A stretch of 48,258 bases of DNA, from the IMG/VR virus record IMGVR_UViG_3300046817_000985, positions 1 through 48,258 of that record; one strand, 5' to 3'. Origin of the DNA: a virus. This document shows positions 1 through 48,258 of the stretch, one piece after another (position 1 is the first letter of the stretch; every line of letters starts with the position of its first letter). The position numbers and the translations under genes are program-made. The notes beneath the pieces were generated by a model that saw nothing but the letters and a program-made list of their open reading frames with translations, was not told the DNA's origin and did no database searches.

Positions 1-127
1 TGAACGGCACCGGAGTGCCGCTGGTGCCGTTCAACTATTATAATGCCGTGAAGGGCGTCGGAGCCCTCGTGGGAGCTGTTTGATGACCGCCCCAACCCCT
101 TACAACCGGCTCACCAACTTCCAGAGC
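1..127. repeat. 127-bp terminal direct repeat, copy 1 (assembly overlap)
   Basis: These 127 bases are identical to the last 127 bases of the window. They hold the last 27 codons or so of the tailspike gene, whose stop is at 81-83, and the first codons of the tail fibre gene. The repeat lies inside coding sequence, and 127 is a common assembler k-mer length. I therefore read it as the overlap of a circular contig, not as a phage direct terminal repeat. Confidence 0.95.
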
Positions 128-7801: not shown

Positions 7802-7825
7802 CTCATAGCAGAAAGGAGGACTAAA

Positions 7826-8725
7826 ATGGCTTGGGATGTACTCTCAACAACCGTCTCCGCTGCTGTGCCAAACGGCGGAACGCTCACCTTCGCCTATCCC
7901 GCGGGCAAGAACGCGGGCAATTACCGTGGCACCTATGGCCAAGAAATGTACGTGGAGGGCTTGCAGGTTCGAGCCTTCTGCCCGACCGACTTCTCGATCT
8001 CTTACGGCGCTTCCGTTGCCACCGTGACCTGGAATGGGGCAACCTCCATTCCGGCGAACACAACCTGCAAGCTGCAAGCCACCTATATCGGCTTCCTCGA
8101 CGAGGAAGCGAACCGGCCCACGGCTTCCACCTTGCGGACGCAGGACTTCCTCACGGTGTTCGTTGATTTTGGCGCCTTGCCCACTGCGGTCACCAACCAG
8201 TTCGCTGCCGCGCAAGCGGTTGCGGGCGCCGCCAACCTGACGCTTGCCGCTGCGGCGAATCTCATCAATGCCCAGCCGGTCAATTGCCAGATCGTCTCGG
8301 CTTCCGCCGGCGACACCACGCAGACGGCGACCGTCTTCGGCCTCGACGAATACGGTCAGGTGATGACCGAGCGCCTGACCCTCAACGGCACGTCGCCGGT
8401 GCTGGGCAAGAAAGCCTTCAAGTCTATCACCCGCATCGCCATGTCGGCGGCGACCGCGGGCAACGTCTCAGCTGGTTTTGGCAAGGTCTACGGGCTTCCC
8501 GTCTATCTGCCCATGCCGGCGCTTGCCATCCGCGAATTGCAGGATGGTGCGATCCCGACGGCGGGTGTCTTCGTCGCTGGTGACAATTCACTGCCGACGA
8601 ACACCACCGGCGATGTTCGCGGCACCTGGACGCCTAATGCCACGCCCAACGGAACCATTAACTTTTCCGTTGTGCTAGCTATCCCATCGGCCCGTTATCC
8701 AGGGCTGGCTCAGAGCACGACGTAA
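7826..8725 (+). CDS. head decoration or structural protein
   Basis: 299 residues preceded by the strongest ribosome site in the window (AAAGGAGGACTAAAATG), suggesting an abundant virion protein. It is beta-rich and low in charge (Thr, Ala, Val, Asn, Gly), with two apparent halves: a start with TLTFAYPAGKNAGNYRGTYG and a second part with VNCQIVSASAGDTTQTAT followed by DEYGQVMTERLTLNG. The second half resembles domains that recur in phage head-decoration and capsid-associated proteins. Following the capsid gene, it is most likely a decoration protein. The exact family was not recognised. Confidence 0.65.
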   Translation: MAWDVLSTTVSAAVPNGGTLTFAYPAGKNAGNYRGTYGQEMYVEGLQVRAFCPTDFSISYGASVATVTWNGATSIPANTTCKLQATYIGFLDEEANRPTASTLRTQDFLTVFVDFGALPTAVTNQFAAAQAVAGAANLTLAAAANLINAQPVNCQIVSASAGDTTQTATVFGLDEYGQVMTERLTLNGTSPVLGKKAFKSITRIAMSAATAGNVSAGFGKVYGLPVYLPMPALAIRELQDGAIPTAGVFVAGDNSLPTNTTGDVRGTWTPNATPNGTINFSVVLAIPSARYPGLAQSTT

Positions 8726-20200: not shown

Positions 20201-20614
20201 CACATGAGCGACCTCGAGACGATCGCGCGCGCCGCCGAGATCGAAGGCCGGCTACCGCCGCCGAAAGGCGCGGCCGAAGCGCCCACGACGGCGAGCTCGG
20301 TCGTCGAGGGCCTGACGGGTTCCGGCATCCCCAGCGTGCTCAACAAGGCTTTCGCCTTCATGAGCGGACGTGTCCCGAAGGGCTATCTGTCGGCCGACAT
20401 AGGCTTGCGCGTTCTGAACAATTTTTCCGAGAAGGAAGCCGCGCGGGCCTGGCGAGAAGCGCTGTTCAATCCCGACATAGCACGTACCATCGCCGATGGC
20501 GTGCGCAACGGCAAGGCGACGCCGATGCAGCAGCAGAAGCTGAAGAGCTATTTGCTGCAGGCGCCGGGGAACACGATCGAGGACATCAAGCGTCGTCAGG
20601 AAGAGGCGCAATGA
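17252..20614 (+). CDS. very large internal virion protein (gp16-like position)
   Basis: 1120 residues, the largest product of the phage. It begins with a duplicated motif, GLFDDLVAP at 3-11 and again at 26-34, which looks like a repeated short linear signal. Hydrophobic glycine-rich segments lie around 90-130 and 240-290. Long helical regions with Pro-rich breaks follow, including a QAPQAPVPGLPAPQ linker near 630. Its length and order match T7 gp16, which is ejected into the cell, but I see no transglycosylase motif here; such a domain is instead encoded separately at 40101. The stop overlaps the endolysin ATG (ATGA). Confidence 0.62.
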   Translation: MAGLFDDLVAPGAPAVPAAAPPRTTGLFDDLVAPNAKPQVPLPQGAVPVPSTPAAQPGFGLIDAAAQADKADAAGGYKRGEIDPLTDKPVERPFEFGRTGMAALEGANRAAASMLLAPSAAGHVIGAQLAKLLGLPAPFDQPAAAYQELINRDPVQPENVYERGAMRGGNQAMLNLPLAAAAPAFGAALTASRTTPFWEMPIWKQAATTVAETGAAKPGSFVAGDVAANIGSGVGAEVGKENLGTGGELIGGALGGVLPAAYPKWISPTGIIARAVAKVAPGIVDAAAGSVPGVAERGILATQYANREGVFADPAVPNPNSGSWVKEALAAAAERQSAKLQSRVAGNLSQAQAAPGAQGNLDEAAALRQQIPGFNPSVAKSMNSQPLLNMEQTLGQTATGDELTALRARGAENAAAINAFGGGRVPPVQGAAPADQQVIDLLTRQAQAADRAAAQGPATIENQIRDATAALPERPVFQTGEQIRGATDVAERAMNAQVQARRAAIDPTGTFREPTTNLYNAIVGRLNNIGTDLTDAVIPPKVREILGNVRPQAILDAQGNPAGRVAPTYDINSLLTAREQVGQRLRTLQAGNQPASMSGADTLRAVRDAIDAEVERISQAPTPGPQAPQAPVPGLPAPQERISGPQAPAAAVDPMRQAGFKFATDYLARLKSVSQEDLQNLIADAEKQVVRHARTEAESQQYRQGLTDVYRKALADAQGAPSGATPGGPDVPTVTPTARGAAPGAPLPPEQPSTIQSRLADYNQFYREQYVPRFRQDLGAELGKNRASGQEAIKSEDIAPRLLAPNAVSEMRQFNLIHGEDPAARDTVINAALDDIRRTSVGPNGMLNPDAVTAWTKAHSRILDEAPWLREAVAGRDPSQLYQRLGEAEAARRATADQNLTSMLGKQPHEVIDAGLKDPRTMQQLAANARAAGPDAEAALRRAVWERATGAGGGEDSALPDPTKLRKFMTDNAPSLSHVLSPEHMSDLETIARAAEIEGRLPPPKGAAEAPTTASSVVEGLTGSGIPSVLNKAFAFMSGRVPKGYLSADIGLRVLNNFSEKEAARAWREALFNPDIARTIADGVRNGKATPMQQQKLKSYLLQAPGNTIEDIKRRQEEAQ

Positions 20615-21321
20615 GCACTATCCATGCTTTAGACATCTCCCACTATCAAGACGTGCATTCGTTCAACGACGTGCGCGCCACCGGCGTCGTCGGCATCATC
20701 CAGAAAGCCACTGAGGGTACCAGCTACTACGATCCGACCTACGCCGACCGCATGAGCAAAGCGCTCGATGCTGGGCTGAAGTGGAGCGCCTATCACTTCC
20801 TGCGCCACGGCAGCGTGGGGAACCAAATGGATTGGTTCTGCAACAAGTCCAAGTTCCCCAAGGGATCGCGCGCCTGCATCGACTACGAGCATCAGGACGT
20901 AACCCTAGATGACCTGCAACAAGCTATAGACGAGTTGAAGGAGAACGATCCGTCTTTGCAGATCGCCATCTACTCCGGGCATCTGCTGAAGGAGCAAGTC
21001 GGCGCCAAGAAGTATCCGTGGCTCGAGCCGCATAGCTTGTGGCTGGCGCAATACACCACCGGCAAGCCCACCTGGCCAACACAAATCTGGCCGATGTGGA
21101 GCTTGTGGCAGTTCTCCGACAAGGGAAGCGTCAACGGCATCTCGGCGCCGGTCGACGTGAACACCTTCAACGGGTCGAAGGAGCAATGCGCGGCCTGGTT
21201 CGGTCCAGCGTCCGCGCTCGTGCCGATCGTGCCGGAAGTTCCGGCAAGTATTCCGACCGTGTCGATCACCGTTGAGGCACCGCCGGGCGTACAGATCACC
21301 GTCAACGGCAAAGTCATATGA
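20611..21321 (+). CDS. GH25 muramidase endolysin
   Basis: 236 residues. It is a glycoside hydrolase family 25 N-acetylmuramidase that cleaves the glycan backbone of peptidoglycan. The opening LDISHYQ (D8) is the classic GH25 start, IIQKATEG follows at 29-36, and the catalytic acid pair is in IDYEHQ (D91, E93). Later strands WLAQYT and LWQFSDKG and DVNTFNG complete the barrel. The domain ends near 200. A Val/Pro-rich C-terminal beta piece of about 30 residues (TVSITVEAPPGVQITVNGKV) may bind the envelope. No signal peptide is present, so a holin or spanin partner is needed. Confidence 0.9.
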   Translation: MSTIHALDISHYQDVHSFNDVRATGVVGIIQKATEGTSYYDPTYADRMSKALDAGLKWSAYHFLRHGSVGNQMDWFCNKSKFPKGSRACIDYEHQDVTLDDLQQAIDELKENDPSLQIAIYSGHLLKEQVGAKKYPWLEPHSLWLAQYTTGKPTWPTQIWPMWSLWQFSDKGSVNGISAPVDVNTFNGSKEQCAAWFGPASALVPIVPEVPASIPTVSITVEAPPGVQITVNGKVI

Positions 21322-21343: not shown

Positions 21344-21778
21344 ATGGCTACTATTACGGTTAAGCCTGGCCAGACAATCTCGATTATGGGCGTTCCGGCC
21401 GACAGTACGCTCCCGCCGATCGTAGGGCCCGTGGACCCTGGTTACAGCCCGCCTTGGGCGCAAGTGCCCCCCGGCGGGCAGGGAGGTGGACCAGTGGACC
21501 CTGGCTACTCGCCGCCATGGGCACAGATCCGGCCGCCAGTCGATCCCGGCTACTCGCCGCCTTGGGCACAGGTGCGGCCGCCCGTCGATCCAGGTTACAG
21601 CCCGCCATGGGCACAGGTGCCGCCGGTTGTACCGCCCACTGAGCCGCCGCCTGTTCAGCCGCCGGCGGCCGACAGTGGTAATTGGGTGTGGGCTTGGTCG
21701 CCGCAGGCCAATCGCTGGGTCTGGGTCAAGGTTCCCGGTGAAGGCGAGGCCGGGCCAAAGACGGCACCGCCTGCCTAA
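21344..21778 (+). CDS. tandem-repeat proline-rich protein in lysis region
   Basis: 144 residues from ATG 21344, preceded by GGAGAGGAAAGGA; a longer upstream frame overlapping the endolysin is less likely. After a short leader (MATITVKPGQTISIMGVPAD) come four near-perfect copies of VDPGYSPPWAQ at about 29-95, joined by short RPP or PPGGQGGG linkers. A Pro segment and a Trp-rich end (NWVWAWSPQANRWVWVKVPG) follow. No membrane segment is visible. The Trp-rich end could bind carbohydrate or peptidoglycan, and the repeats could be an extended spacer. Function is unknown. Confidence 0.65.
   Translation: MATITVKPGQTISIMGVPADSTLPPIVGPVDPGYSPPWAQVPPGGQGGGPVDPGYSPPWAQIRPPVDPGYSPPWAQVRPPVDPGYSPPWAQVPPVVPPTEPPPVQPPAADSGNWVWAWSPQANRWVWVKVPGEGEAGPKTAPPA
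21430..21622 (+). repeat. four tandem coding repeats (VDPGYSPPWAQ)
   Basis: Four related units of about 40-60 bases encode GPVDPGYSPPWAQ variants. They differ at third codon positions (GGTTAC/GGCTAC, CCTTGG/CCATGG), so the peptide is conserved more tightly than the DNA. This implies selection on the repeated peptide, not a very recent slippage event. Confidence 0.85.
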
Positions 21779-22349: not shown

Positions 22350-22769
22350 ATGACCGTTCACGTTACATCCCGCAAACCCGAATTTGATAACCGTCAAGCA
22401 CGGCTGCTAGAATTCGCCAAGCGTCTTCAAAGGGCCCAACTCGACAAGGGCATGACGCAGGCGGAACTCGCTAGAGCTTCCGGCCTCGGTGAAGACAGCA
22501 TCTCCGGCTACGTCCGTGGCCGCACCCTCCCCCGTCCCGCTCAATTGCAAAAACTATGTAAAGTTTTAGGCGTCGAACGCGATGCCTTGCTGCCGCCTCT
22601 AGCTATAGAAGAAGTCCCAACCCATCGAAAACCTTCACTAGATTTTAAAGATTTAGGTGATGGTAGAGCGTGGCTATTTTTAAACCAAGCAGTCGATTTC
22701 AGTACAGGTTTAAAAATCATGCAGCTTTTAAACGACCAGTACGGAGAACTAAAACGAAAAACCGGCTAA
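22350..22769 (+). CDS. XRE-family repressor-like regulator
   Basis: 139 residues. A Cro/CI-type helix-turn-helix lies at about 22-76 (LQRAQLDKGMTQAELARASGLG, then SISGYVRGRTLPRPAQLQKLC). The C-terminal half (LGDGRAWLFLNQAVDFSTGLKIMQLLND) would mediate oligomerisation; no LexA-like Ser/Lys autocleavage motif is visible. As the first gene after the lysogeny promoter and coupled to the excisionase-like and integrase genes, it is the likely prophage repressor. Its coding DNA is more AT-rich than the rest of the phage. The ribosome site is weak, so low expression is likely. Confidence 0.75.
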   Translation: MTVHVTSRKPEFDNRQARLLEFAKRLQRAQLDKGMTQAELARASGLGEDSISGYVRGRTLPRPAQLQKLCKVLGVERDALLPPLAIEEVPTHRKPSLDFKDLGDGRAWLFLNQAVDFSTGLKIMQLLNDQYGELKRKTG

Positions 22770-23086
22770 TGCGATCAGGCGAATTTGCTAAACTTTGTCA
22801 CCTCTCGCCAAGAACTATCCAACGCTACGTTGAAACTGGCCTGCTGATCCCCGCCGGCCGTACTGAGAGACGCCAATCTCTATTCTCAGTTGAGCAGATC
22901 GAGGACATCACATGGCTCGTCCGCAGCGCAAGGTACCCTGGTTTGAAACCCGTAACGGTATCGGCTACGCCGCTTGGTACGACCCGCAGGCTCGACGGAC
23001 AAAGCGCGTATCGCTACGCACTGACACGATTGAGGATGGGCAGAAGGCCTTCGCGGCGTTCCTCGCCAACGGACAAGCCTACATAG
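22769..23086 (+). CDS. MerR/excisionase-type HTH protein overlapping integrase
   Basis: 105 residues from ATG 22769, which overlaps the repressor stop (TAATG). Residues 1-50 form a winged-helix MerR-like motif (FAKLCHLSPRTIQRYVETGLLIP, SLFSVEQIEDITWLV), as in recombination directionality factors. The remaining half overlaps the integrase in another frame (175 bases) and is low-quality protein sequence, so the functional part is probably the first 45-50 residues. An Xis or regulator role is inferred from the fold and position. Confidence 0.55.
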   Translation: MRSGEFAKLCHLSPRTIQRYVETGLLIPAGRTERRQSLFSVEQIEDITWLVRSARYPGLKPVTVSATPLGTTRRLDGQSAYRYALTRLRMGRRPSRRSSPTDKPT

Positions 23087-23940
23087 CCGGGATGCGCATT
23101 GGCGACCGGATGACAGTGCGCCAGGCGCTGACGACCTACGAGTTGGAACAGGGCCCTAACCTCGCCGACCGGAAAACGATGAAGTGCCGCATCAATACGC
23201 TGCTGGCGAATTTCGGCGACGAGCCGTTGGCCGACATCGACATACCCCGCTGTAGGGTCTATGGCGCTGTAAGAGTTAGCCAGGGCATTGCCGTGGCGAC
23301 CATCCGGCGCGAACTCGGCATCCTCCAGGCCGCGACCAATCACGCAAAACGCTGGCGGCGCATCGGCACGCCGGAAAGCCCTGGCCTGCCGACGATCGAA
23401 TTGCCGGCAGCCGAAGAGCGGGCCGGCGAAGCGCCCTGGCTGACCAAGGCGGAATTGGCCGCGGTGCTCGATGCCGCCGACGGGCGGCTGCACGATTTCA
23501 TCGTGCTCGCCTACTACACCGCGTCCCGCCGCAACGCGATCGAGAGGCTGCGCGTCGAACAGATCCGGCTCGATCTGGGCCGGGTCCACTTGGCAAAGGA
23601 CGGAGAACGCAAGACCAAGAAGCGCCGCCCGGTGGTGCCCATCTTCCCGGAGATGCGGGAGGTGCTGGAACGCCGCATCGCTAAAGCCGAGGGGGGTTAC
23701 CTCTTCGGGAGTAGGTGGAAGGCCTACGAGCCTTTCGTGAACCTGCTGCGCAGGTGCGGCATCACCAACGGGCGCTGCCACCCGCACGTCTTGCGGCACT
23801 CGAGGGCCACTCATCTGCTGCTCGACGGGGCTTCCATCTACGCGGTCGCCAAGCTCTTGGGCGACACCGTGTCGACGGTCGAGAGGGCCTATGGCCACTG
23901 CTCCATCGAGTACCTTTCACAGCTCGGACAGGCTGCGTAA
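22912..23940 (+). CDS. int: tyrosine integrase
   Basis: 342 residues. It performs site-specific recombination of phage and host attachment sites. The N-terminal arm-binding-like piece is YAAWYDPQARRTKRVSLRT (19-37). The core-binding domain is about 62-160 and the catalytic domain 175-342. The catalytic set is visible: Arg in TASRRNAIERLR (about R206), Lys near KTKKRRPVVP, HVLRHSRAT (H292, R295) and Tyr327 in STVERAYGHC. The usual LGH histidine is Asp here (LLGD, D318), a known but less common variant. Integrase is the third gene of the repressor operon, an economical arrangement. Confidence 0.92.
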   Translation: MARPQRKVPWFETRNGIGYAAWYDPQARRTKRVSLRTDTIEDGQKAFAAFLANGQAYIAGMRIGDRMTVRQALTTYELEQGPNLADRKTMKCRINTLLANFGDEPLADIDIPRCRVYGAVRVSQGIAVATIRRELGILQAATNHAKRWRRIGTPESPGLPTIELPAAEERAGEAPWLTKAELAAVLDAADGRLHDFIVLAYYTASRRNAIERLRVEQIRLDLGRVHLAKDGERKTKKRRPVVPIFPEMREVLERRIAKAEGGYLFGSRWKAYEPFVNLLRRCGITNGRCHPHVLRHSRATHLLLDGASIYAVAKLLGDTVSTVERAYGHCSIEYLSQLGQAA

Positions 23941-24135: not shown

Positions 24136-24684
24136 TTAAAAGTAGCATTCAATCAGCTTCTTAAGCGATACCCCTCCCGGCTCCGTGTACACCGCCGTAG
24201 GAAATTTTCTCAAAAGCGATTCGTCGCGCATCAGTAGAGCCTCGACACGGCCGGGGTCTTTGGCCAGCGGGAACACCCATCTATCCTTTTGGCTTTGTCG
24301 TGCGTCAGTCCAAGCGCCATTGCCGCTCGGCGGCGGTCGCAGGCGATGCCACGTCGGCGCCCACCACCAATTGCATGCACGATAGAGGGCTCCGGTATGG
24401 CCGACGCTTGGGTCGCTATAGCTTACGATTGTAGTGACTTCGGGCCGAAGCTTCCGCAAAGCACGCGAGAACGCGGCCCATTGACGACTGCCGGAGTTAG
24501 TCTCGCGCGATAAAATGCACCAGCGGGCGAGTTCCAACCAATGAAGCGGCAAGCGCCTAGAGGTCGGCGAAGTCACCACGATCACCCCAAATTCGTCTTG
24601 CCATGCCGTCCCGCGTTTGATCGGGCCGAGGTAGTGGTTTGCGGCCAAAACAGATGCCACCGAGGCTAGCGGCACCCAACTCAT
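24136..24684 (-). CDS. mom: Mom-like DNA adenine modification protein
   Basis: 182 residues from ATG 24684, which overlaps the polymerase stop (ATGA). The sequence has the signature of the Mom family: ANHYLG (15-20), an early V-V-T strand (GVIVVTSPTSRRLP), a central LELARWCI, then YSDPSVGHTGALYRACNW (89-106), PTWHRLRPPPSG and DRWVFPL. Phage Mu Mom converts adenine to a methylcarbamoyl derivative that blocks restriction, and it has an acetyltransferase-like fold. Here the gene is the last of the replication operon, so modification would follow replication. The exact chemistry in this phage is not known. Confidence 0.72.
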   Translation of the reverse strand: MSWVPLASVASVLAANHYLGPIKRGTAWQDEFGVIVVTSPTSRRLPLHWLELARWCILSRETNSGSRQWAAFSRALRKLRPEVTTIVSYSDPSVGHTGALYRACNWWWAPTWHRLRPPPSGNGAWTDARQSQKDRWVFPLAKDPGRVEALLMRDESLLRKFPTAVYTEPGGVSLKKLIECYF

Positions 24685-26819
24685 TTCCGGTAGCGCTCCC
24701 CGGACCAGGCACTCGCGGCGATGGGCAATCCGAAGGCCCATTTGGGAATTTCCGTCATAATTTTTTCAAAATTTTCCAGGGTTCCGAAGCCTAATGGCAC
24801 CTCGCAAACGACCTCGTCGTGCACGGACAGCACGACCGGGTAGCCAGCGGCCTCGAGCCGCACCATCGCCTCGGCCATCACATCCCTAGCCACCGCCTGG
24901 GTGATGTTCTCGGCCCACAGCCCGCCATAGGCGTATTGCTCTTCCCACTGCTTCGTGAAAGTGTCCATTCCCTTGTAGGCAAACACCCGCCTAACCACGA
25001 CGTCGCCCTCGTCGTCGACCCACGGCATCGCCTTCATCGCAAAGTGCGGAAAGGGGTAGCAGAGTGAACGGCCGGAAGGCAGCCGCACCCAGAGGAACGA
25101 TCCCGACTTGCGCATCTTCACCGGCTCGACATAGATCACCGGGTGTTCCTTCAAGGCGCCCTTCTGGCCGCGGGGGTTTTCGGCGTCGCGGTGCAGCACG
25201 TCGGTGTTAGAGATGGCTTCCATGGCGCCGCGCTCGAGATCCTTCCACCAAGAGGTGATTCCCTCATGCGCCGCCCGCCAGCGCCGCTTGATGATCTCGG
25301 CCGTCACCCAAGCGCGCTCACCCATGCCGCTCTGCTTGCCGCGGCTCTCATAGGCGGCTTGCGCCTGCGTCAAGAGGCCGGGCGACGTAGCGGTGATCAG
25401 GTCGTAGCTCTCGGCAATGTCGACGCCATAGGTTTTGGCCATAGCACCGAAGGCGCCGGGCCCGCCTTGATAACCCAAGGCCAATTCCTGCACCTTGCCG
25501 ATCTGCCGCTGAGCCTTGGTGACGACTGCAGGGTCTATACCAAAGGATCTCCCATATGCCACTTGGTATAGGTCTGGGCCTTTGCCTTCATCGTAATCCC
25601 TGAAGGCCCTGAGCTTCCAGTTCTCTCCGGCCAGCCAGGCCAGCACCCGCCCCTCGATGTTGCTAAAATCCGCGGCCATCAGGCGGGTGCCCGGAGCGGC
25701 GCAGACCATGCCGCGTATGCAATCGCCCACCACCGAGAGCGGCTCGTCGTAGACCGTCTCGATAAGGTCGAGGGAACCATAGCCGACGAGCTCGATCGCG
25801 GTTGAAACGTTGTCGCTCGAGGGCCGCTTCAGGTTCTGCGGCTGGAATCGCCTGCCGCCCCAGCGGCCCGTGGACGCCGCGTGAAACTGCAGCAGGCCCC
25901 GTGCGCGGCCGTCGAGGCTCATGCCGGCCAGCAGTGCATCGATCTTGGCGACAGAGGTCTTCGCCGTCGACTGACGCAGCTGCAGCGCTTCCCGGACGTT
26001 AGGTGAGAGGTCATATCGCATCAGGATCTCGACGATCTTGTCCTTGGCCAGGCTGTTGCCATCGCCGCCCAAACCCCGAAACCATTTGGTCAGCCGGCCG
26101 ACCTCGGTGCATTTTTGCACCTCGCCGGCAGTGACTTCTTTCATGCGGATATCGGCCTTCAACGTAGCGGCCTTCACAATGCGCTTGGCATTATCGCACA
26201 GCGGCACGTCGACCTGCACCCCCCGCCCATTGATCACCTGGTCGAGGCGCCACAGCGCCTGCTCGGCTTCGCTGAGCGGCATGAGCTTCTCGTAGAGCAT
26301 GCGCTCGACCTCGACATCGGTGCGGCAATACTCGTAGAGCTTCTCGAGCTTCTCCGGCTCGTCCCACCAGGTCAGCGGGTCGGTTGACCGTGGCCGAGCC
26401 ATGCGCAGCATCAACCCTCGCCCCACCATGTCCTTAGGCGTAGTGAGCGAGAGCGCCGCGGCGCAGTTCTCAAGCGAGGCCGGCAGCGCCATGGCCAGCG
26501 CCATGCTCATGGTGCAGCGCCACTGCTCGGGCTTGGGGATTGGCCAGCCATAGCGAGGCGTGAGGATGTGCTGCCAGATGACGCTCTCGAAATTGGCGTT
26601 GTGGGCGACGATCGGCCAGCCACGTCGGACGAATTCGCCAATGGCGATCGGCGGAAGATCGCTTTTTCGCCACAAGAACACGTCGCCGTCATCAATCGCG
26701 AACGCCGCGCACTGCACGTCGGTCGTCGGATCTTCGGCGTGGCGATAGACACCCACCGACTTGAGATCGACCGTGCTACGCGTTTCGAAGTCGAGAAAGA
26801 GCGTGTGGGTTTCAGGCAT
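24681..26819 (-). CDS. family A DNA polymerase with 3'-5' exonuclease domain
   Basis: 712 residues from ATG 26819; an upstream extension in frame is less likely because it overlaps another gene. The exonuclease domain begins with LFLDFETRS (D10, E12). Polymerase motifs are present in order: AADFSNIEGRVLAWLAG (motif A), RQIGKVQELALGYQGGPGAF (motif B region) and SVHDEVVCEVP (motif C, near 667). This is the phage PolA type, which replicates the genome with the prim-pol/helicase encoded at 33880. It is translationally coupled to the small TM protein before it and Mom after it. Confidence 0.93.
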   Translation of the reverse strand: MPETHTLFLDFETRSTVDLKSVGVYRHAEDPTTDVQCAAFAIDDGDVFLWRKSDLPPIAIGEFVRRGWPIVAHNANFESVIWQHILTPRYGWPIPKPEQWRCTMSMALAMALPASLENCAAALSLTTPKDMVGRGLMLRMARPRSTDPLTWWDEPEKLEKLYEYCRTDVEVERMLYEKLMPLSEAEQALWRLDQVINGRGVQVDVPLCDNAKRIVKAATLKADIRMKEVTAGEVQKCTEVGRLTKWFRGLGGDGNSLAKDKIVEILMRYDLSPNVREALQLRQSTAKTSVAKIDALLAGMSLDGRARGLLQFHAASTGRWGGRRFQPQNLKRPSSDNVSTAIELVGYGSLDLIETVYDEPLSVVGDCIRGMVCAAPGTRLMAADFSNIEGRVLAWLAGENWKLRAFRDYDEGKGPDLYQVAYGRSFGIDPAVVTKAQRQIGKVQELALGYQGGPGAFGAMAKTYGVDIAESYDLITATSPGLLTQAQAAYESRGKQSGMGERAWVTAEIIKRRWRAAHEGITSWWKDLERGAMEAISNTDVLHRDAENPRGQKGALKEHPVIYVEPVKMRKSGSFLWVRLPSGRSLCYPFPHFAMKAMPWVDDEGDVVVRRVFAYKGMDTFTKQWEEQYAYGGLWAENITQAVARDVMAEAMVRLEAAGYPVVLSVHDEVVCEVPLGFGTLENFEKIMTEIPKWAFGLPIAASAWSGERYRK

Positions 26820-39540: not shown

Positions 39541-39895
39541 CGCTTGCCAGATGCTTACCCCGAAGCGCCGTAGTGCTCTCATCCCTAGGGGAAATGGCCT
39601 AATAGCACGTTACTGATAGTAGCGTGTCGGCGCCGTCGGCGTCGGCGTCGTTAGTCGGCAATGCGACCCCGACCAATTGCAATTCGCAACCACCCCTCCC
39701 GCCCACCCCGCCCCGGTGTTGGCGTGGCCCAGGCAGGCTCGCACACTAATTTTCCAATTTTTTGGCGGTTCGGGGCTGCACACTAATTTTCCAGAATTTC
39801 CAGCGTTCTAGATCGCTTCGTATTCAGTTAAACTGAAGTGTTCTGTTACAGTGTGCACAGTGTTGTCGTTATGCCGGCCTTGACTTCCATCCCCT
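39541..39895. other. noncoding region with repeats before late structural genes
   Basis: No convincing gene. It contains an imperfect hairpin CACGTTACT/AGTAGCGTG (39607-39627), a run of GTCGGC units (39626-39658), a 16-base direct repeat GCACACTAATTTTCCA (39741-39756 and 39778-39793), and a TTCAGTT-A-AACTGAA dyad (39823-39837). Its place after the possible TerS gene makes it a candidate packaging (pac or cos) or late control region. Confidence 0.5.
39741..39793 (+). repeat. 16-bp direct repeat GCACACTAATTTTCCA
   Basis: Two exact copies 37 bases apart start to start in an otherwise GC-rich noncoding region. Their AT-rich core suggests a protein-binding site, for example for terminase or a late regulator. 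Confidence 0.6.
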
Positions 39896-40100: not shown

Positions 40101-40820
40101 GTGGCCACGATCGCAGACCTCCTTCGCGAAGCCGCCCTTCGGTCCTCTCCTCTGGTGCCGATGCAACATCCCGTTGATATCATTCCACAATACGAAAGTG
40201 GCGATCGGAACGTGATGAACTACATCAACGATCCGACCCACACCGCACAGGGCAATTGGCAGATCACCAACACCAATTGGAAGGCCTACGCGCCTCGCGC
40301 CGGCATTGATCTCGCCCAGTTCCCGGATGCCATGTCGGCTCCGCGTGACCTTCAGCGCAGCGTCGCCATCAAGATGTACGACGAGCAGGGCTATAAGCCT
40401 TGGGCCCCATACAACGACAAGCTCCAGGCGGCGTTGAGCGATGGCTCCCAGGCCGGCGTCGGCTACATCAAGCCAGTAAGCCCTCTCGAGCCCCAGTATG
40501 CGACCAAGAGCGGCGTGACCTACCCTGGCTCTAGCGACCCTAACGCCATCGGCGTTGGCAGCATTGGCGCGAGCTTCATTCCCAAGGCCGATACGGCCGA
40601 AGCCCCTGCCAGCATTGCCGGCGAAACCGAGGCGCCCCGGGGTTCCCCCGTGGTCGTCGCCAACCTGCCCAATTACGGCCTGGGCCAAGCTTTTGCGCAG
40701 GCGCTGGGGTCTCTGACCCCTAAAGCGCAACCTTACACCACGGCGCCGCTGCAGGGCGGTGTCCGGCCGAGCTCTCTTGGCAATGGTGCGCCACGCTCCC
40801 AACCGCCTATTATCGTTTAG
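40101..40820 (+). CDS. virion lytic transglycosylase-like protein
   Basis: 239 residues from GTG 40101. Residues about 25-105 carry a lysozyme-like transglycosylase pattern: DIIPQYESGDRNVMNYI with a catalytic-type Glu, TAQGNWQITNTNWKAYAP, LQRSVAIKMYDEQGYKPWAPYN. It would open peptidoglycan during DNA entry. The remainder is Pro/Gly/Ala-rich and flexible, probably for packing in the virion. It lies far from the other ejection genes but is the first gene of the second late block. The ribosome site is weak, so the structured leader may control it. Confidence 0.68.
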   Translation: MATIADLLREAALRSSPLVPMQHPVDIIPQYESGDRNVMNYINDPTHTAQGNWQITNTNWKAYAPRAGIDLAQFPDAMSAPRDLQRSVAIKMYDEQGYKPWAPYNDKLQAALSDGSQAGVGYIKPVSPLEPQYATKSGVTYPGSSDPNAIGVGSIGASFIPKADTAEAPASIAGETEAPRGSPVVVANLPNYGLGQAFAQALGSLTPKAQPYTTAPLQGGVRPSSLGNGAPRSQPPIIV

Positions 40821-40826
40821 CAATCC

Positions 40827-40859
40827 AAAAAAAAGGAGCCGGCGGCTAGCCACCGGCTC
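40827..40859 (-). terminator. rho-independent terminator of PEP-CTERM gene
   Basis: On the minus strand GAGCCGG/CCGGCTC (7-bp stem) is followed by CTTTTTTTT. This is the clearest intrinsic terminator in the window. It faces the minus-strand PEP-CTERM gene and also lies just past the plus-strand stop at 40820. Confidence 0.8.
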
Positions 40860-41040: not shown

Positions 41041-41667
41041 TTAAACCAATGCAATACCGCGTGAACGGCGGCGGTAACCGGCAAACCCCAAAGCCCCGAA
41101 GCCCAGCAGCATCAACGCCCATGTGGCTGGCTCCGGCACCGCGCCGAGAGTGCTGAATTCTACTTGTTTCAGTTCCTTGAAATCTCCGAGCACGCCGACG
41201 CTCTTGATCGTCTCGCCGTCGTTGGAGATGACGCCGACCCTGGAAAAATCGTCGTCCTTGCCGGAATCGAAGGTAAAAATCTGGGGCGCGTTGCCCTGGT
41301 CGTCCTGCACCACGAAGCTGAACACACCAGCCGTCACGAGCTGACCGCGAAGGGAGAAATCGTTGAAGAGCAGCGGGTCTTCGGGGGTGAAGGTGGCGCT
41401 GGTCAGGTTGCCGTCCTTGACCGGCACGATGTTCGCGAAGCCCGAGGCCACATCGACATTCCCAATGGTCGAGATGTCGATGAAAATGCCGCTCTTCTGC
41501 GTGAAGACTTCACCCGTGAAGGCGTTCGTGTCCTTCAGATCGCCATCGAAGAAAAGCTTGCCGGAGTGTAGGAAGCTCGTCTCGAGCACGAAGGTGGCCG
41601 AGGCCGGCGCCGCGCTTAAAACCATGGCCATCACGGCCAAACCGATAGCCAATGCACGTCCAGCCAT
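41041..41667 (-). CDS. PEP-CTERM sorted exported protein (moron)
   Basis: 208 residues. The signal peptide is MAGRALAIGL to SAAPASA (cut near 24). The mature domain is beta-rich and acidic (FVLETSFLHSGKLFFDGDL, GIFIDISTIGNVDVASGF, FSFVVQDDQGNAPQIFTFDSG). The C terminus is a textbook PEP-CTERM signal: VPEPATW (177-183), a hydrophobic helix ALMLLGFGALGFAG and GYRRRSRG. The host EpsH-type exosortase would cut at PEP and send the protein to the cell surface or matrix. The gene is opposite to the late genes and has its own terminator and probable promoter, so it is probably expressed from the prophage. Confidence 0.85.
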   Translation of the reverse strand: MAGRALAIGLAVMAMVLSAAPASATFVLETSFLHSGKLFFDGDLKDTNAFTGEVFTQKSGIFIDISTIGNVDVASGFANIVPVKDGNLTSATFTPEDPLLFNDFSLRGQLVTAGVFSFVVQDDQGNAPQIFTFDSGKDDDFSRVGVISNDGETIKSVGVLGDFKELKQVEFSTLGAVPEPATWALMLLGFGALGFAGYRRRSRGIALV

Positions 41668-41693
41668 GGTGTTTATCCCCTAGATCAAGCCCC

Positions 41694-41753
41694 ACGCTAT
41701 GCCGTTTGTCGAGTAAGTCAAGATCAAGTCGACTTTCTTGATATTCCTTGATA
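41694..41753 (-). promoter_or_regulatory. candidate promoter and operator cluster of PEP-CTERM gene
   Basis: On the minus strand TTGACT (41721-41716) and TAGCGT (41699-41694) are 16 bases apart, a weak promoter. Just upstream are a perfect palindrome AAGTCGACTT (41726-41735) and two direct CTTGATA copies (41737-41743 and 41747-41753) spaced one helical turn apart, plus two TCAAG copies. This density of half-sites suggests regulator binding. Confidence 0.4.
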
Positions 41754-41793
41754 CTGTGACGTTCAACCCGTCTCCCGCATCGGAGATACGCCC

Positions 41794-42087
41794 ATGCCTT
41801 TCGTCGGAAATCGTTACATCGCCGACGGCACGGGCGTCGGTACGCCCCAGGCCGGCAATGAGGCCCAGTCGGCCCAGACCGCGGTTGCGGTGACCCCTTC
41901 CGACAGCGCCACGGTGTTCTTCGACGCGCTCTATGTCGGCGTCTCCGGCGACATCTCGCTCATCGCCTCGAATTCAAGCTCTGCCGTGGTCTTCAAGAGC
42001 GTCCCCGTGGGCATCCTCCCGGTGTCCTGCGTGCGCGTCAACGCCACCTTGACCACGGCCACCAACATCCTGGGGCTGACCCTGTGA
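41794..42087 (+). CDS. small structural protein
   Basis: 97 residues, beta-rich and low in charge (PFVGNRYIADGTGVGTPQAG, SDSATVFFDALYVGVSGDISL, SSAVVFKSVPVGILPVSC). The pattern is that of a small virion or tail-hub beta protein. It starts the spike block and is coupled to the next small frame (GTGA). No family was named. Confidence 0.55.
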   Translation: MPFVGNRYIADGTGVGTPQAGNEAQSAQTAVAVTPSDSATVFFDALYVGVSGDISLIASNSSSAVVFKSVPVGILPVSCVRVNATLTTATNILGLTL

Positions 42088-42246: not shown

Positions 42247-43680
42247 ATGGCCAATCTGCTCACGGTCGGCATCAGCGCTGGTCTTCCGAACAGCGGCACC
42301 GGCACCGTAAGTACCATCGATGGGCTGATGGCCGATGGCGGGCAAGCCACCTTAGGGGCGAAAGCCGACGCCAAATCGACTGCGACCGACCTCACCCCCA
42401 TCTCCGTCGTCTCCATCCTGAAGCAGATTTCGGCTTCCGTGCAGGCGCCGCCGTCCCAGGCCGTCACCAACGCTGGCACCTTCCCTATCCAGGTCGCCGA
42501 TGGCGCGGATACGACCTTCGGCGCCAAGACGGACGCCAAAAGCACTGCTACCGATGGCACGAGCATCTCGGCGATGTCCGTGCTGAAACAGATTTCCGCG
42601 AGCGTGCAGTCGCCGGCATCCACCGCTGTCACCAATGCCGGCACCTTCGCAGTACAGGCGACGCTTGCGGCGGAGACAACCAAGGTCATTGGCACCACGC
42701 GCACCCTGGGCAATGGCGGCGCGGCCATGGATGCCGCGGGCCAGAACGCTGCAAGCCCCGCCAACGAGCTCATTGTCGGTGGCCAGTTCAACACCTCTCC
42801 GACCACGATCACTTCCGGCAACGTCTCACCCCTGCAGCTGGACAACGCCGGCAACCTCAAGGTCAACATTGCGTCGGGTGCGAGCTCGGGCGCCGTGGCC
42901 CAAGGCTCGACCACTTCCGGCCAGACCGGCGGGCTGACCCAGGCCGCGGTGACCACGGCCGCACCGGCCTACACGACGGCGCAGACCAATCCCCTCTCAC
43001 TGGACACGGCCGGCAATTTGCGGGTGCGGGCAATCAACACGGACGGCACCAATAACGCCGCCGTGAAGGCCGCGAGCACTGCCCCCCTGGCCACTGATCC
43101 TGCCCTGGTGGTGGCCATCTCGCCCAACAGCGTCAACGCCAACGGCCAGAACACCATGGCCAACTCGGCGCCGGTGGTGATTGCGAGCAACCAATCTTCC
43201 ATCCCGATCGCCGGTGACGTGGCTTCCGGCTCGACCGACAGCGGCAACCCGCTCAAGATGGGCGGCATCGCCAAGACGGCCAATCCCACCGCGGTAACCG
43301 ACGGGCAACGTGTGGGGGCGCTCTTCGACAAGTCCGGCAAGCAGGTCACCGTCGGCGCCATCCGCAGCCTCAAGGCCGTCCAGGCGACCACGATCACGAG
43401 CTCGACCTCGCCGGTCACGATCGTCACTGCGGTGGCCTCGTTGTTCACCGACATCTACGGCTTGGTGCTGACCAACACCTCCGCGACCGGCACCGAGGTC
43501 GTAATCGGCGACGGCACCAACAACATGAGCTTCTACGTGCCGCCGACCGACACCCGCGGCATGATGCTCCCAGTCGACAGCGCCATCCCGGCGACCACGG
43601 TGAACACGGCCTGGACGGCGACCTGCACCACCAGCGTGGCGAGCCTCAAGGTCACCGCCATGTATGTGAAGAACAACTGA
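42247..43680 (+). CDS. tail/spike-associated structural protein with internal duplication
   Basis: 477 residues, mostly Thr, Ala, Ser, Asn, Gly and Val. An approximately 60-residue unit is duplicated: GAKADAKSTATD ... ILKQISASVQAP at about 38-70 and GAKTDAKSTATD ... VLKQISASVQSP at about 91-122. The section from 160 to 320 has repeated short beta turns (LQLDNAGNLKVN, LSLDTAGNLRVR). The C terminus is a compact beta domain (SLKAVQATTITSS, IVTAVASLFTDIYGLVLTNTSATG). It is likely a virion spike or baseplate-like shaft; exact role unknown. Confidence 0.6.
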   Translation: MANLLTVGISAGLPNSGTGTVSTIDGLMADGGQATLGAKADAKSTATDLTPISVVSILKQISASVQAPPSQAVTNAGTFPIQVADGADTTFGAKTDAKSTATDGTSISAMSVLKQISASVQSPASTAVTNAGTFAVQATLAAETTKVIGTTRTLGNGGAAMDAAGQNAASPANELIVGGQFNTSPTTITSGNVSPLQLDNAGNLKVNIASGASSGAVAQGSTTSGQTGGLTQAAVTTAAPAYTTAQTNPLSLDTAGNLRVRAINTDGTNNAAVKAASTAPLATDPALVVAISPNSVNANGQNTMANSAPVVIASNQSSIPIAGDVASGSTDSGNPLKMGGIAKTANPTAVTDGQRVGALFDKSGKQVTVGAIRSLKAVQATTITSSTSPVTIVTAVASLFTDIYGLVLTNTSATGTEVVIGDGTNNMSFYVPPTDTRGMMLPVDSAIPATTVNTAWTATCTTSVASLKVTAMYVKNN

Positions 43681-43681
43681 T

Positions 43682-45613
43682 ATGGCGGTCTGGTATATCA
43701 ACTACGGCGATGGCGCGACCACCGGCTACTATGCCGTTCCCAAATGGACGACCGGCACCAAGACGGCCGGGACCATCATCCGCCAGTTCACCGCGCCTGC
43801 CGTCGGCAACGAGCGTTGCTTCGTCTGCACCATCGGCGGGGCCGCGTCCGGCACCGAGCCGACCTGGGTTGTCGCCAAAGGCGCGGCGACGACCGACGGC
43901 GCTGCCACCTGGATGGAGTGCACGGGGCAGCCGGGCGTCAACGGGGATCTCACCAATTGCCCGGCCTGGCTGGCGGTGAAGAACACCGCCGTGGCGCTTG
44001 GCTACATCATCAAGGACGGCAGCTCCTTACGACTGTTCATCTGCACCACGGCCGGCACTGCCGGGAATGCTGCCGAGCCGACCTGGAACACGACTCTGGG
44101 CGCCACCACGGCGGACAACACCGTGACCTGGACCAATCTCGGCGTGGTGGCCGGCTTCTCGACGGCTTATGGCGCGCCGATCGCAAGAGCCAACAATGCG
44201 AGTGCGGCCGGCTGGGGCGCTGCCGGTGACACGATGTACATCGCCGACAATCACGCCGAGACGCAAGGCACGGCGGCCGGTATCGGTTCGCCGGGCACGG
44301 CCGTCGCCCCTTGCTATTGGCTGTGCGTGGACCATACCAAGGCGCCGCCGGGGAGCGCTGACCTGAAGACCACGGCGACGATCTCGACGACCGGTACCAG
44401 CTCGATTGCGATCAATGGTTTTATCTATATGTATGGGCTTACGTTCTCCTCAGGTTCAGCGGCGTCCAATGCTCCGATCGTCTTCAACCCTACGACGCTG
44501 GGTGAAGAAGCTTTTCTGGATACTTGCAACCTGATCCTCAATACCACCAGCGCTTCTTCCACTATTACTCTGGGTAATACCAATCGTATTTCTTATGATG
44601 TTAAATGGCGTAACACGACGGTGAAGTTCGGCTCGGTGTCGCAGTCGATAATGCTGACGCAATGCTCTCTCGATTGGCGGAACACGCCTGCCGCCGTTCA
44701 GGGAGCTACGCTTCCAGGCGCCTTGTTCGCTCAGACCTCAGGCGCCGGGCAGGCTTCGTTCGTCTATCTGGAAGGGGTTGACCTGTCGGCACTTTCGACC
44801 GGAAAGACGCTCTTCTCTGCTTCGACCAGTGCGCAGTCGTCCATCATGAAGGACTGCAAGATCGATGCTGCGGTCATTATCGCCACGGTCAACGCTGCGA
44901 CGGCGCAGCGTGTCCTGGGTGTTCGCTGTGATAGTTCAGGGACCAATAACAACAGCTTCGACTACCAGTATCGCGGTCAGATGGTCACCGAGCGCACGGT
45001 CGTGCGTACCTTGGGCGATGGCACGGTTTCGTGGAACATCTCGACCAACAGTTGTTCCTTTGCCTTCCCCTACAAAGGCATCCCGATCGCCATCAACAAC
45101 CTGACGATCGGTACTGTCACGGCGACGGTCGAGGGCATGTACAACGCCGCTGCGCTGCCTTTCAGCGACGAGGTCTGGTTCAGTGCCGAGTGCCTGGGCT
45201 CTGGTTCTAGCCCTCAAGGCTCGTTCGTGTCCGGCGGCAAGGCCAATGTGCTGGCCACCGGCACCGTCCTGACGGCGTCCACGGCGGCTTGGGACGGGCT
45301 CGCCGCGGCACGGATCAGCAGTCATGCCTATAACCTCGGCGACGTCTACAAAGCCGCCAGCAACCCAGGGCGGCTGTTTTTCTGCATCACCGCCGGCTCG
45401 AGCGCCGGCTCCGAGCCGGGTGGCATCGCCTCGGCGGTCGATGGCGGCTCCGTGACCGACGGCGGCGCGGTCTTCCGGGCGGGCGTGCGCTTCAAGCAGC
45501 CCGTTACGATGTCGCCGGCGCAGGCCGGCGACATCTATGTCACGCCGAATGTCGGCAAGACGTCGCTGGCCGCCGGCACGCTCTACATCGATCCCTTCAT
45601 CGTGTTGAGCTGA
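43682..45613 (+). CDS. tailspike-like protein with repeated carbohydrate-binding-type modules
   Basis: 643 residues. Three related modules are visible: CTIGGAASGTEPTW near 55, CTTAGTAGNAAEPTW near 120, and CITAGSSAGSEPG near 570, each followed by a DG(A/T)-type strand (TTDGAATW, TADNTVTW, VTDGGAVF). They bracket a beta-helix-like central body (TATISTTGTSSIAINGFIYMYG and on) rich in Ser, Thr and Asn. The architecture suggests receptor binding, with modules at the base. It starts one base after the previous stop. The enzymatic activity of the body is unknown. Confidence 0.65.
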   Translation: MAVWYINYGDGATTGYYAVPKWTTGTKTAGTIIRQFTAPAVGNERCFVCTIGGAASGTEPTWVVAKGAATTDGAATWMECTGQPGVNGDLTNCPAWLAVKNTAVALGYIIKDGSSLRLFICTTAGTAGNAAEPTWNTTLGATTADNTVTWTNLGVVAGFSTAYGAPIARANNASAAGWGAAGDTMYIADNHAETQGTAAGIGSPGTAVAPCYWLCVDHTKAPPGSADLKTTATISTTGTSSIAINGFIYMYGLTFSSGSAASNAPIVFNPTTLGEEAFLDTCNLILNTTSASSTITLGNTNRISYDVKWRNTTVKFGSVSQSIMLTQCSLDWRNTPAAVQGATLPGALFAQTSGAGQASFVYLEGVDLSALSTGKTLFSASTSAQSSIMKDCKIDAAVIIATVNAATAQRVLGVRCDSSGTNNNSFDYQYRGQMVTERTVVRTLGDGTVSWNISTNSCSFAFPYKGIPIAINNLTIGTVTATVEGMYNAAALPFSDEVWFSAECLGSGSSPQGSFVSGGKANVLATGTVLTASTAAWDGLAAARISSHAYNLGDVYKAASNPGRLFFCITAGSSAGSEPGGIASAVDGGSVTDGGAVFRAGVRFKQPVTMSPAQAGDIYVTPNVGKTSLAAGTLYIDPFIVLS

Positions 45614-45614
45614 C

Positions 45615-45788
45615 ATGGCCGCCACCAAGCAAAGCACGGTTGCCGGCACGACACCGATCTCCGGTGCGACCTACGTCATCCAGACGACCGACGGGCCGGC
45701 GAAGATGAAGCCGGGCGCCGCGGTGCAAGAAAACGCTTCCGCCGGGCCCGACACGACAGGCGGCACCTTGCCGATGATGGGTGTCTGA
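45615..45788 (+). CDS. 57-residue small protein between spikes
   Basis: From ATG 45615, one base after the preceding stop, to TGA 45788, which overlaps the next ATG (TGATG). It reads TKQSTVAGTTPISGATYVIQ at the start and is Gly/Ala/Thr-rich, without membrane segments. It could be a linker or a chaperone for the neighbouring spike; unknown. Confidence 0.55.
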   Translation: MAATKQSTVAGTTPISGATYVIQTTDGPAKMKPGAAVQENASAGPDTTGGTLPMMGV

Positions 45789-48214
45789 TGTCGAGCGGGT
45801 TTCTCGCCTATGGCTGTCCTTCGTCCGCTGGGATTTTCATAGCGCCCGGCATAGGCTGGAGTGGTGTCGCAGGGACAGGCAACACCCAGCCGCCGGCGCT
45901 CGACACCAGCGTGCAGGGCAGTGGCTGGGCTTATAGCGCTGTGGGTGCCTACGACGAATGCAATGGCATTTGGATCGAGAACACTACGACGCAGGTCTGC
46001 GTGGGGGCCGCAACTCAAGATCGCGCCGGCATCAAGCAGGTCAATGTCTACTGCGAATCGTCGACGCCTACCGTGCTGACGACGCAGACTATCAGTAACC
46101 GCGGCTCGCAGGGGTATGTGTTCACGCCGATCTCGCGATCGGGGCAGAACGGCGAAGCTACTTACACGATTGACATCATCCCCTACAACGGGTTGATCCA
46201 GCGCCTCACGGCTACCTGGGTGCTCAATACCGACGTTGGTACGCTGATTTCGCGGGCGGCCCGTTACGTGGATTACTCCACCGGCAACGATAACACCGGG
46301 GATGGGCTCAGCGCTGGCACTGCGTGGAAGACGTTCTACAAGGCGACGCAGAACGTTCCTTCTGGGGGCATTATCTATTACGCGGGTAACCTCTCGCATG
46401 GGGGCGGCGCGGTCTACCTTGAAGAAACGACGACCGGCAACGCGCAAACCGTTGCACGGCCGGTCGACATCCGTCCCCTTATTGCCGGCGACACTGCAAC
46501 GGTTAGTCGAACGGCCAGCAAGCAGACCTTCAATGGTGCTTCCAACGGCGGCTCGGCAGTCAACAATTGGCGGATCATGTGCAGCAAGCTGGGCATGGAG
46601 GGCCTGACGATCGACCTCGCCAAGCTCACCGGATTAGGAGGCGGCTCGACTGCGATTACGTATCTGGTCCACAAGCGTTGTGCGTTCGTCGATCCCAATG
46701 GAGTTCTCGGCCCTCTTTATTCTTGGAACCCGAATGAGTCTATCGAAGGCTATGCTGGGTCTTGCGTTGATTGTACGTTCAGCGCTCCTATGGCGCTCAG
46801 TGCAAGCTTTATTCGCAACTGCTCTGGATATTTCTCCTGGGACTCGATGTTCATGTTTTCGCCAGGGGGATACACCGTATTCAACTATAGTGCGTATGCG
46901 CCCGTTGGGTATCAACAACGTGGTAGCGATGCTACGATCCTGACGGTATCCACCATTACCTACAACGGTAACAACACATCGACGATCGTCTGGGTAGGAT
47001 CACCATTGCTGGCTAACCTGACACAGGCTGGGATCAACCTTATCACGAACACGACCTATCCGGCTCGCACGATAACGAACGTCGCCAATAACGGTTCTGG
47101 TTTAATCCGTTTGACTATGGCATCGACCACAGGGCTGGCAACGGGAAACGTCGTTATTGTTCGCAGCGTGGTTGGGAATGAGACTGTTCTAGGAGGCAAT
47201 GAGGCCAACGACACTTGGATCATTACCGTAGTAGATGGCACCCACGTCGATCTGCAGGGGTCGACGTTCTTGCACACTTACGTGTCTGGGGGCGTCATGA
47301 TGAACCAATTTGGTGTTACGTCAACGAGCGTGGCGGGCTTCAGCACTACATTTGGGGATGCCGGTGGTACCGTCGCTGCGCTTATTTCCCCTGGGAATAC
47401 TGCTTGGATCTCAACTCCAGGCCACTCGGATGTGGCACAGTTCGCGTTGGGTGACTACGCGAACAACTATTTCCAGCGTTACAAATGCACGGGTAAGAGC
47501 GTCCAGCTTGTGCTGTTGCAGGCGACCCACTCGACGCTGAGTGGCACGATATCCACGACCGGCACATCGGTGACCTTCTCGTCAGCGCAGTCTTTCTCCC
47601 AGGACCAATTTATTGTGCTCTCGTCTGGCCCACAGGCCGGTCAGGCTCGCCGGGTGGTGGCCGCTACTGTCTCCTCGACCTCGGCCACGCTGGTCAGCGC
47701 CTTCACGGTCGACCAGTCCGGTGTCTCGGGCTTTCAGACCAAGACCGTCAAGAACACCGCGTTCGTCAACTGCATATTTGATCACTTCGGCGTCGGCCCC
47801 GAGATCGGTCAGGTGCAGGACGGAACGTTAAACGTCTTCTACCTGCAGAGTACTCTCCACGGTGCCTCGGTAGCTTTCCGCACTGACTTCGCATACACCG
47901 CTGTCGAGGCATTTGGCGCCATCGATTGCGTGTTCAACAACCTGGGCACGTCTGGCGGCGGGGGGTTCCCTGCGTCGGTCAATATCGACGGGGATTATTT
48001 CGAGTCCGGAACGCTGCGTGGCACCAATGCGGGTGGCACCGGCATCATCACATACAACTCTACCGACGGAACGTCGGGACCGAATGCGTCTTATACACCT
48101 ACTTCTGGTCTGACACAGACGGTCAGAGGCCTGAACGGCACCGGAGTGCCGCTGGTGCCGTTCAACTATTATAATGCCGTGAAGGGCGTCGGAGCCCTCG
48201 TGGGAGCTGTTTGA
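45788..48214 (+). CDS. large tailspike, parallel beta-helix type
   Basis: 808 residues. The N-terminal part of about 150 residues is a beta domain. Then RYVDYSTGNDNTGDGLSAGTAW leads into TFYKATQNVPSGGIIYYAGN, the typical entry (Y-V-D-x-x-x-G-N-D) of right-handed parallel beta-helix pectate-lyase-like spikes that bind or cut surface polysaccharide. The Asn/Thr/Ser/Gly-rich body runs to about 760 and contains lower-GC patches (46650-47300), as expected in an exchanged receptor-binding region. The C-terminal end lies in the terminal repeat. It is coupled to the small gene before and the fibre after (TGATG). Confidence 0.75.
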   Translation: MSSGFLAYGCPSSAGIFIAPGIGWSGVAGTGNTQPPALDTSVQGSGWAYSAVGAYDECNGIWIENTTTQVCVGAATQDRAGIKQVNVYCESSTPTVLTTQTISNRGSQGYVFTPISRSGQNGEATYTIDIIPYNGLIQRLTATWVLNTDVGTLISRAARYVDYSTGNDNTGDGLSAGTAWKTFYKATQNVPSGGIIYYAGNLSHGGGAVYLEETTTGNAQTVARPVDIRPLIAGDTATVSRTASKQTFNGASNGGSAVNNWRIMCSKLGMEGLTIDLAKLTGLGGGSTAITYLVHKRCAFVDPNGVLGPLYSWNPNESIEGYAGSCVDCTFSAPMALSASFIRNCSGYFSWDSMFMFSPGGYTVFNYSAYAPVGYQQRGSDATILTVSTITYNGNNTSTIVWVGSPLLANLTQAGINLITNTTYPARTITNVANNGSGLIRLTMASTTGLATGNVVIVRSVVGNETVLGGNEANDTWIITVVDGTHVDLQGSTFLHTYVSGGVMMNQFGVTSTSVAGFSTTFGDAGGTVAALISPGNTAWISTPGHSDVAQFALGDYANNYFQRYKCTGKSVQLVLLQATHSTLSGTISTTGTSVTFSSAQSFSQDQFIVLSSGPQAGQARRVVAATVSSTSATLVSAFTVDQSGVSGFQTKTVKNTAFVNCIFDHFGVGPEIGQVQDGTLNVFYLQSTLHGASVAFRTDFAYTAVEAFGAIDCVFNNLGTSGGGGFPASVNIDGDYFESGTLRGTNAGGTGIITYNSTDGTSGPNASYTPTSGLTQTVRGLNGTGVPLVPFNYYNAVKGVGALVGAV

Positions 48215-48258
48215 TGACCGCCCCAACCCCTTACAACCGGCTCACCAACTTCCAGAGC
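48132..48258. repeat. 127-bp terminal direct repeat, copy 2
   Basis: Exact repeat of the first 127 bases. It includes the end of the tailspike gene and the first codons of the tail fibre, whose full copy begins at 83. The fragment after 48214 is therefore not a separate gene. Confidence 0.95.

Follow-up and report, generated by a model that had tools for sequence, protein, structure and literature searches.

Phage morons and superinfection-exclusion proteins acting at the cell surface are known as lipoproteins, inner-membrane proteins or O-antigen enzymes. A second system to be considered is that of the PEP-CTERM proteins, the substrates of the host exosortase (EpsH/Xrt), which present a signal peptide, a body of low homology and a C-terminal PEP motif followed by a helix and an Arg cluster, and whose genes form single-gene units with an upstream intergenic region (PMC1569441). 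Moreover, a sigma-54-type GG-N10-GC element is found upstream of most proteobacterial PEP-CTERM genes (Haft et al. 2006, PMC1569441). The same protein architecture and the same single-gene organization were found in the viral DNA analysed here, a stretch of 48,258 nucleotides (hereafter, the window), although, unlike most of the proteobacterial genes, no GG-N10-GC spacing was seen by eye upstream of the phage gene.

The gene encodes a protein of 208 amino acids comprising a signal peptide, a body of about 150 residues and a PEPxxWA-CTERM tail. Its N-terminus (MAGRALAIGLAVMAMVLSAAPASA, followed by TF) combines a hydrophobic run with an AxA site, and a hydropathy peak falls on residues 1-30. The C-terminal tail (AVPEPATWALMLLGFGALGFAGYRRRSR) reached 41.6 bits against the PEPxxWA-CTERM profile NF035944 (curated NCBIfam cut-off of 35) and 33.9 bits against PF07589 (curated Pfam cut-off of 20.7), and a chance tail of this kind (PEP..W, hydrophobic stretch and basic residues) would be expected 0.0025 times per genome, as estimated with Markov-random genomes of the same composition. 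Both hallmarks of a PEP-CTERM exosortase substrate were hence present, namely the signal peptide and the PEP motif with helix and basic cluster above curated cut-offs, as the preliminary description had claimed (VPEPATW, helix, RRR); judged from its sequence, the tail is a bona fide exosortase sorting tail. The body is free of cysteines, and neither a solved or profiled relative nor a recognisable family was found for it by profile and structure comparison; the AlphaFold model of the protein (pLDDT of 32) was not usable, so that no activity could be read from the fold. Kinship with the flocculation protein PepA was rejected, as floc_PepA gave only a weak profile match (31 bits, with a cut-off of 80), which disappeared once the tail was removed.

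The window ends in an exact direct repeat and represents a complete phage genome (Table 1), which also contains DNA polymerase and recombination genes. Since this complete genome harbours terminase, capsid, endolysin, repressor and integrase genes, the PEP-CTERM gene is phage-borne and does not belong to a host flank; contamination with such a flank was ruled out by the 127-bp terminal repeat and the phage genes on both sides. The suggestion of a prophage was supported only indirectly, by the integrase and repressor genes of this terminally repeated genome; the record is not an integrated copy. The closest named phages, both of similar genome size, were Rhizobium phage RHph_N65 (related terminase and capsid, 37% and 34%) and Microcystis phage Mae-Yong1326-1 (39% and 42%, respectively). 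No PEPxxWA tail was found in either of these genomes, and phages of this type can hence do without the gene. The host is likely an alphaproteobacterium, given the Rhizobium phage relative and the PEPxxWA variant of the tail, which presumably points to such a host. Furthermore, phage OP028995.1 (L118), recorded from a Microcystis culture, had its capsid and terminase type in common with a Rhizobium phage, and an alphaproteobacterium associated with that culture might be its actual host. The window also encodes a Mom-like DNA modification protein (24136-24741), which suggests modified phage DNA, and contains in a low-coding stretch (39741-39793) an exact 16-bp direct repeat (GCACACTAATTTTCCA) with copies 37 bp apart, a possible replication or regulatory element.

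Table 1. Features of the window relevant to the PEP-CTERM gene.
Feature	Position	Strand	Basis or remark
Direct terminal repeat, identical to 48132-48258	1-127		Marks complete genome
Terminase large subunit	1600-3228	+	
Major capsid protein	6767-7801	+	
Endolysin; lysis cassette far from PEP-CTERM gene	20611-21321	+	
Proline-rich repeat protein (PVDPGYSPPWAQ)	21344-21778	+	75-79% homologue in G003, directly downstream of PEP-CTERM gene
CI/HTH-type repressor	22350-22769	+	
Tyrosine integrase	22912-23940	+	
Transglycosylase-like protein (PF06737, just above cut-off)	40101-40820	+	
Intrinsic terminator of PEP-CTERM gene: 10-bp stem, T8 tail	40836-40859	-	Hairpin search
PEP-CTERM protein gene, 208 aa	41041-41667	-	Profile matches, homologues, dN/dS about 0.2
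PEPxxWA-CTERM tail, residues 177-201: VPEPATW, hydrophobic helix, RRR	41065-41139	-	Profile matches
Sec signal peptide coding region, residues 1-24, ending AAPASA before TF	41596-41667	-	Sequence reading and hydropathy
Divergent intergenic region, 126 bp; probable operator/promoter region	41668-41793		
Tail fibre protein (phrog_12296)	41794-42087	+	
Three further large proteins (477, 643, 808 aa), tail-fibre/appendage region	42247-48214	+	Position and weak matches suggest the role

The PEP-CTERM gene is, as previously described, a lone minus-strand gene between plus-strand genes, and the terminator of its own that had been claimed was found as a hairpin with a T-run about 180 nt past the stop codon. 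With its divergent upstream region and this terminator, the gene has the anatomy of a separate transcription unit. Four ATCAAG/CTTGAT half-sites (41684, 41723, 41737 and 41747) lie within about 70 bp of the divergent region and constitute the densest cluster of the genome, while no match to the sigma-70 consensus was found in these 126 bp. An FNR/FixK-type operator was rejected because of the orientation of the half-sites (TTGAT-N4-ATCAA being expected). As to control by the phage's own CI, no comparable cluster was found near 22350. No PEP gene was found adjoining the related tail-fibre genes of other phages, so the pairing of fibre and PEP genes is not fixed.

A sister phage (G017; 84-86% DNA identity to the window) also carried a PEP-CTERM gene, located on the minus strand at the start of its contig (L164 3-518), directly before the homologue of window 80-1603, which was followed by the terminase. 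The bodies of the two PEP-CTERM proteins showed no similarity, and only their last 38 residues aligned. One phage lineage thus presented two different PEP-CTERM proteins, both encoded on the minus strand of the fibre-side region, and nothing else hints as strongly that selection may act on the tag and on surface display.

Three full-length homologues of the protein (69-70% identity) were found by searching viral contigs (G001, G002 and G003). Among these, G003 is a second complete phage genome, with an end repeat of 159 bp (one mismatch) and a PEP-CTERM homologue of 70% identity. Apart from two proteins, one with proline-rich repeats and the other a small membrane protein, as well as an HTH repressor domain and a portion of a fibre, almost no other sequence was shared between these three contigs and the window; the occurrence of a homologous PEP gene in otherwise nearly unrelated phages therefore indicates that the gene has moved between phages. 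The dN/dS ratios of three homologue pairs were 0.16, 0.21 and 0.17, with dS near saturation in the pairs that include the window gene. Moreover, the body and the tail were conserved while the signal peptide drifted, and the tail was the most conserved part between the window protein and its homologues. By this substitution pattern, the protein is maintained by purifying selection, as would be expected of a functional exported protein. An antisense artefact or a decaying frame was rejected by the codon-position pattern and dN/dS, and the purifying selection on the coding frame makes it unlikely that the gene is expressed only as antisense of the late genes.

In G003, the PEP-CTERM gene was directly followed by a proline-rich repeat protein (L003 5770-6189). 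Proline-rich proteins of the PDQGLPG type, such as that at L051 3081-3710, also adjoined the PEP-CTERM genes of three other families (L051/L071/L075, L086 and L095/L096). Furthermore, two proteins next to the G003 gene, namely L003 6241-7302 and the protein beginning MFSNRLLAAAAVALG (inside the ORF 7019-8689), had signal peptides and were fibre- or appendage-like; exported fibre-like phage proteins would be unusual.

The preliminary description had considered phage examples to be few, which was corrected by scanning the IMG/VR viral contigs for PEPATWA-coding DNA. A total of 94 stretches matched, most of them with a complete PEP-CTERM tail, and together with other loci about 72 distinct PEP-CTERM ORFs were obtained, a number that sets the maximum of phage-borne copies in this collection, as some contigs may be prophage flanks or plasmids (e.g., a 416-kb contig with a histidine-kinase-like neighbour). 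These ORFs were grouped by their N-terminal parts into 56 families, which indicate many independent acquisitions. Out of 28 long contigs tested, seven had exact end repeats (G007, G046, G047, G048, G066, G069 and G072) and four inexact ones (G011, G054, G057 and G073), the window and G003 being two further genomes with end repeats. Terminase_6N was found in half of the 18 PEP-bearing viral records (9/18). Two or three PEP-CTERM genes were present in each of the contigs G063, G053, G058 and G010. No exosortase (EpsH/PF09721) was encoded in the 18 records, the phage of the window included, in a search whose positive control matched only in the archaeon M. jannaschii among 14 control genomes; sorting would thus depend on the host enzyme. 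Cellular homologues were not matched in genome contigs by scans for exact short patterns, which do not imply absence, and a tblastn search with the short tail, probably masked as low complexity and hence uninformative, gave no matches in either phages or plasmids.

On balance, we lean towards reading the gene as a phage moron, that is, a self-contained cargo for a surface protein sorted by the host exosortase, which would alter the envelope of cells that the phage infects or lysogenizes. The gene lies inside a phage genome, with the terminal repeat and phage genes all around it; it is accessory, given the lack of the tail in the named relatives and the different PEP gene of the sister phage; and of an own promoter and terminator, the terminator and operator-like repeats were present, without a match to a promoter consensus. 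In the mechanism proposed, the host Sec system would export the protein and signal peptidase would cut after ASA24, as suggested by the signal peptide. As the tail family suggests, the PEPxxWA tail would then keep the protein in the inner membrane until the host exosortase cuts at the PEP motif and the body is passed to the outer surface or the exopolysaccharide. Finally, considering the neighbourhood and the repeated acquisition, the displayed protein may alter phage binding to the infected or lysogenic cell, most likely by reducing the adsorption of rival phages or the re-adsorption of progeny, and secondarily by changing matrix or aggregation. Regarding the earlier proposal of a phage PEP-CTERM gene that alters the host surface, the phage-borne gene and its real sorting tail stood, and the gene proved to be under selection, whereas expression in a lysogen, processing by a host exosortase, and receptor masking or matrix change are what we infer.

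An unlikely alternative, though the one that fares best, keeps the display mechanism but moves its action from the lysogen to the lytic cycle. Synthesized along with the structural proteins, the protein would be sorted onto the surface of a cell that is already dying and would block re-adsorption of progeny to the lysing host and its debris. In G001-G003, the portal and late genes share their strand with the PEP-CTERM gene, which agrees with such a role, is at odds with a purely lysogenic function and means that expression in lysogens cannot be assumed as a general rule. Moreover, the gene adjoins tail-fibre genes in the window and in G017, and an integrase was found in only 8 of the 18 PEP-bearing records. 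However, in the window and in G017 the gene runs antisense to the late genes. Furthermore, the start of the gene in G001-G003 is preceded at about 30 nt by a hairpin with a T-run, and in G003 this terminator hairpin, situated between the gene and its upstream neighbour, cuts the two apart.

Less probable still is a cargo that benefits the host of the lysogen through floc or biofilm formation, with no part in competition between phages. Host PEP-CTERM proteins have been linked to exopolysaccharide and to the formation of flocs (PMC1569441; PMC9850573), and floc_PepA was weakly matched; but this match was lost without the tail, and the site beside fibre genes suggests an adsorption theme. A membrane-anchored envelope protein or lysis helper, whether spanin-like or membrane-disrupting, with no more than a resemblance to exosortase substrates, is very improbable. 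The protein would be anchored at both ends before processing and the adjoining gene encodes a transglycosylase-like protein; a lysis role is nevertheless unlikely because in both the window and G003 the lysis genes, namely those of the endolysin and of the membrane protein next to it, are located away from the PEP-CTERM gene, and the tail both exceeds the curated sorting-tail cut-offs and is the best conserved part. Finally, a neutral hitchhiker, i.e., a host PEP-CTERM gene recently acquired without benefit to the phage, or an antisense artefact, is scarcely credible: some hosts have many PEP-CTERM genes and the two named relatives lack the tail, yet dN/dS is about 0.2 between phage copies, the same family occurs in otherwise different phages and the sister phage has a second, different PEP gene.

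Beyond the moron reading of this single gene, it is tentatively proposed that phages of exosortase-bearing hosts repeatedly recruit unrelated PEPxxWA-tagged proteins, in some lineages beside receptor-binding genes, as an interchangeable, phage-controlled display system in which the host exosortase would be the 'printer' shared by proteins that block adsorption or change the surface. If so, phages would need to carry nothing but the tagged substrate to make use of an entire bacterial pathway for surface sorting, known mainly from biofilm and floc formation; exosortase systems would be under phage-related selective pressure; and the extreme diversity in sequence and the scatter of PEP-CTERM proteins would in part be accounted for. 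Phage genes now annotated as hypothetical would also gain a simple test of function, based on expression with and without exosortase and then adsorption.

No moron using the exosortase route and no description of phage-encoded PEP-CTERM proteins was found in a literature search, most subscription journals lying outside it; phage morons and exosortase sorting are each known, and their combination and recurrence appear to be undescribed. Compared with these known systems, the gene is like phage morons and superinfection-exclusion surface proteins in being stand-alone, accessory in related phages and presumed to change the envelope (reviewed in PMC11436027), and it differs from the host PEP-CTERM/exosortase systems in that the substrate is encoded by a phage without an exosortase of its own.
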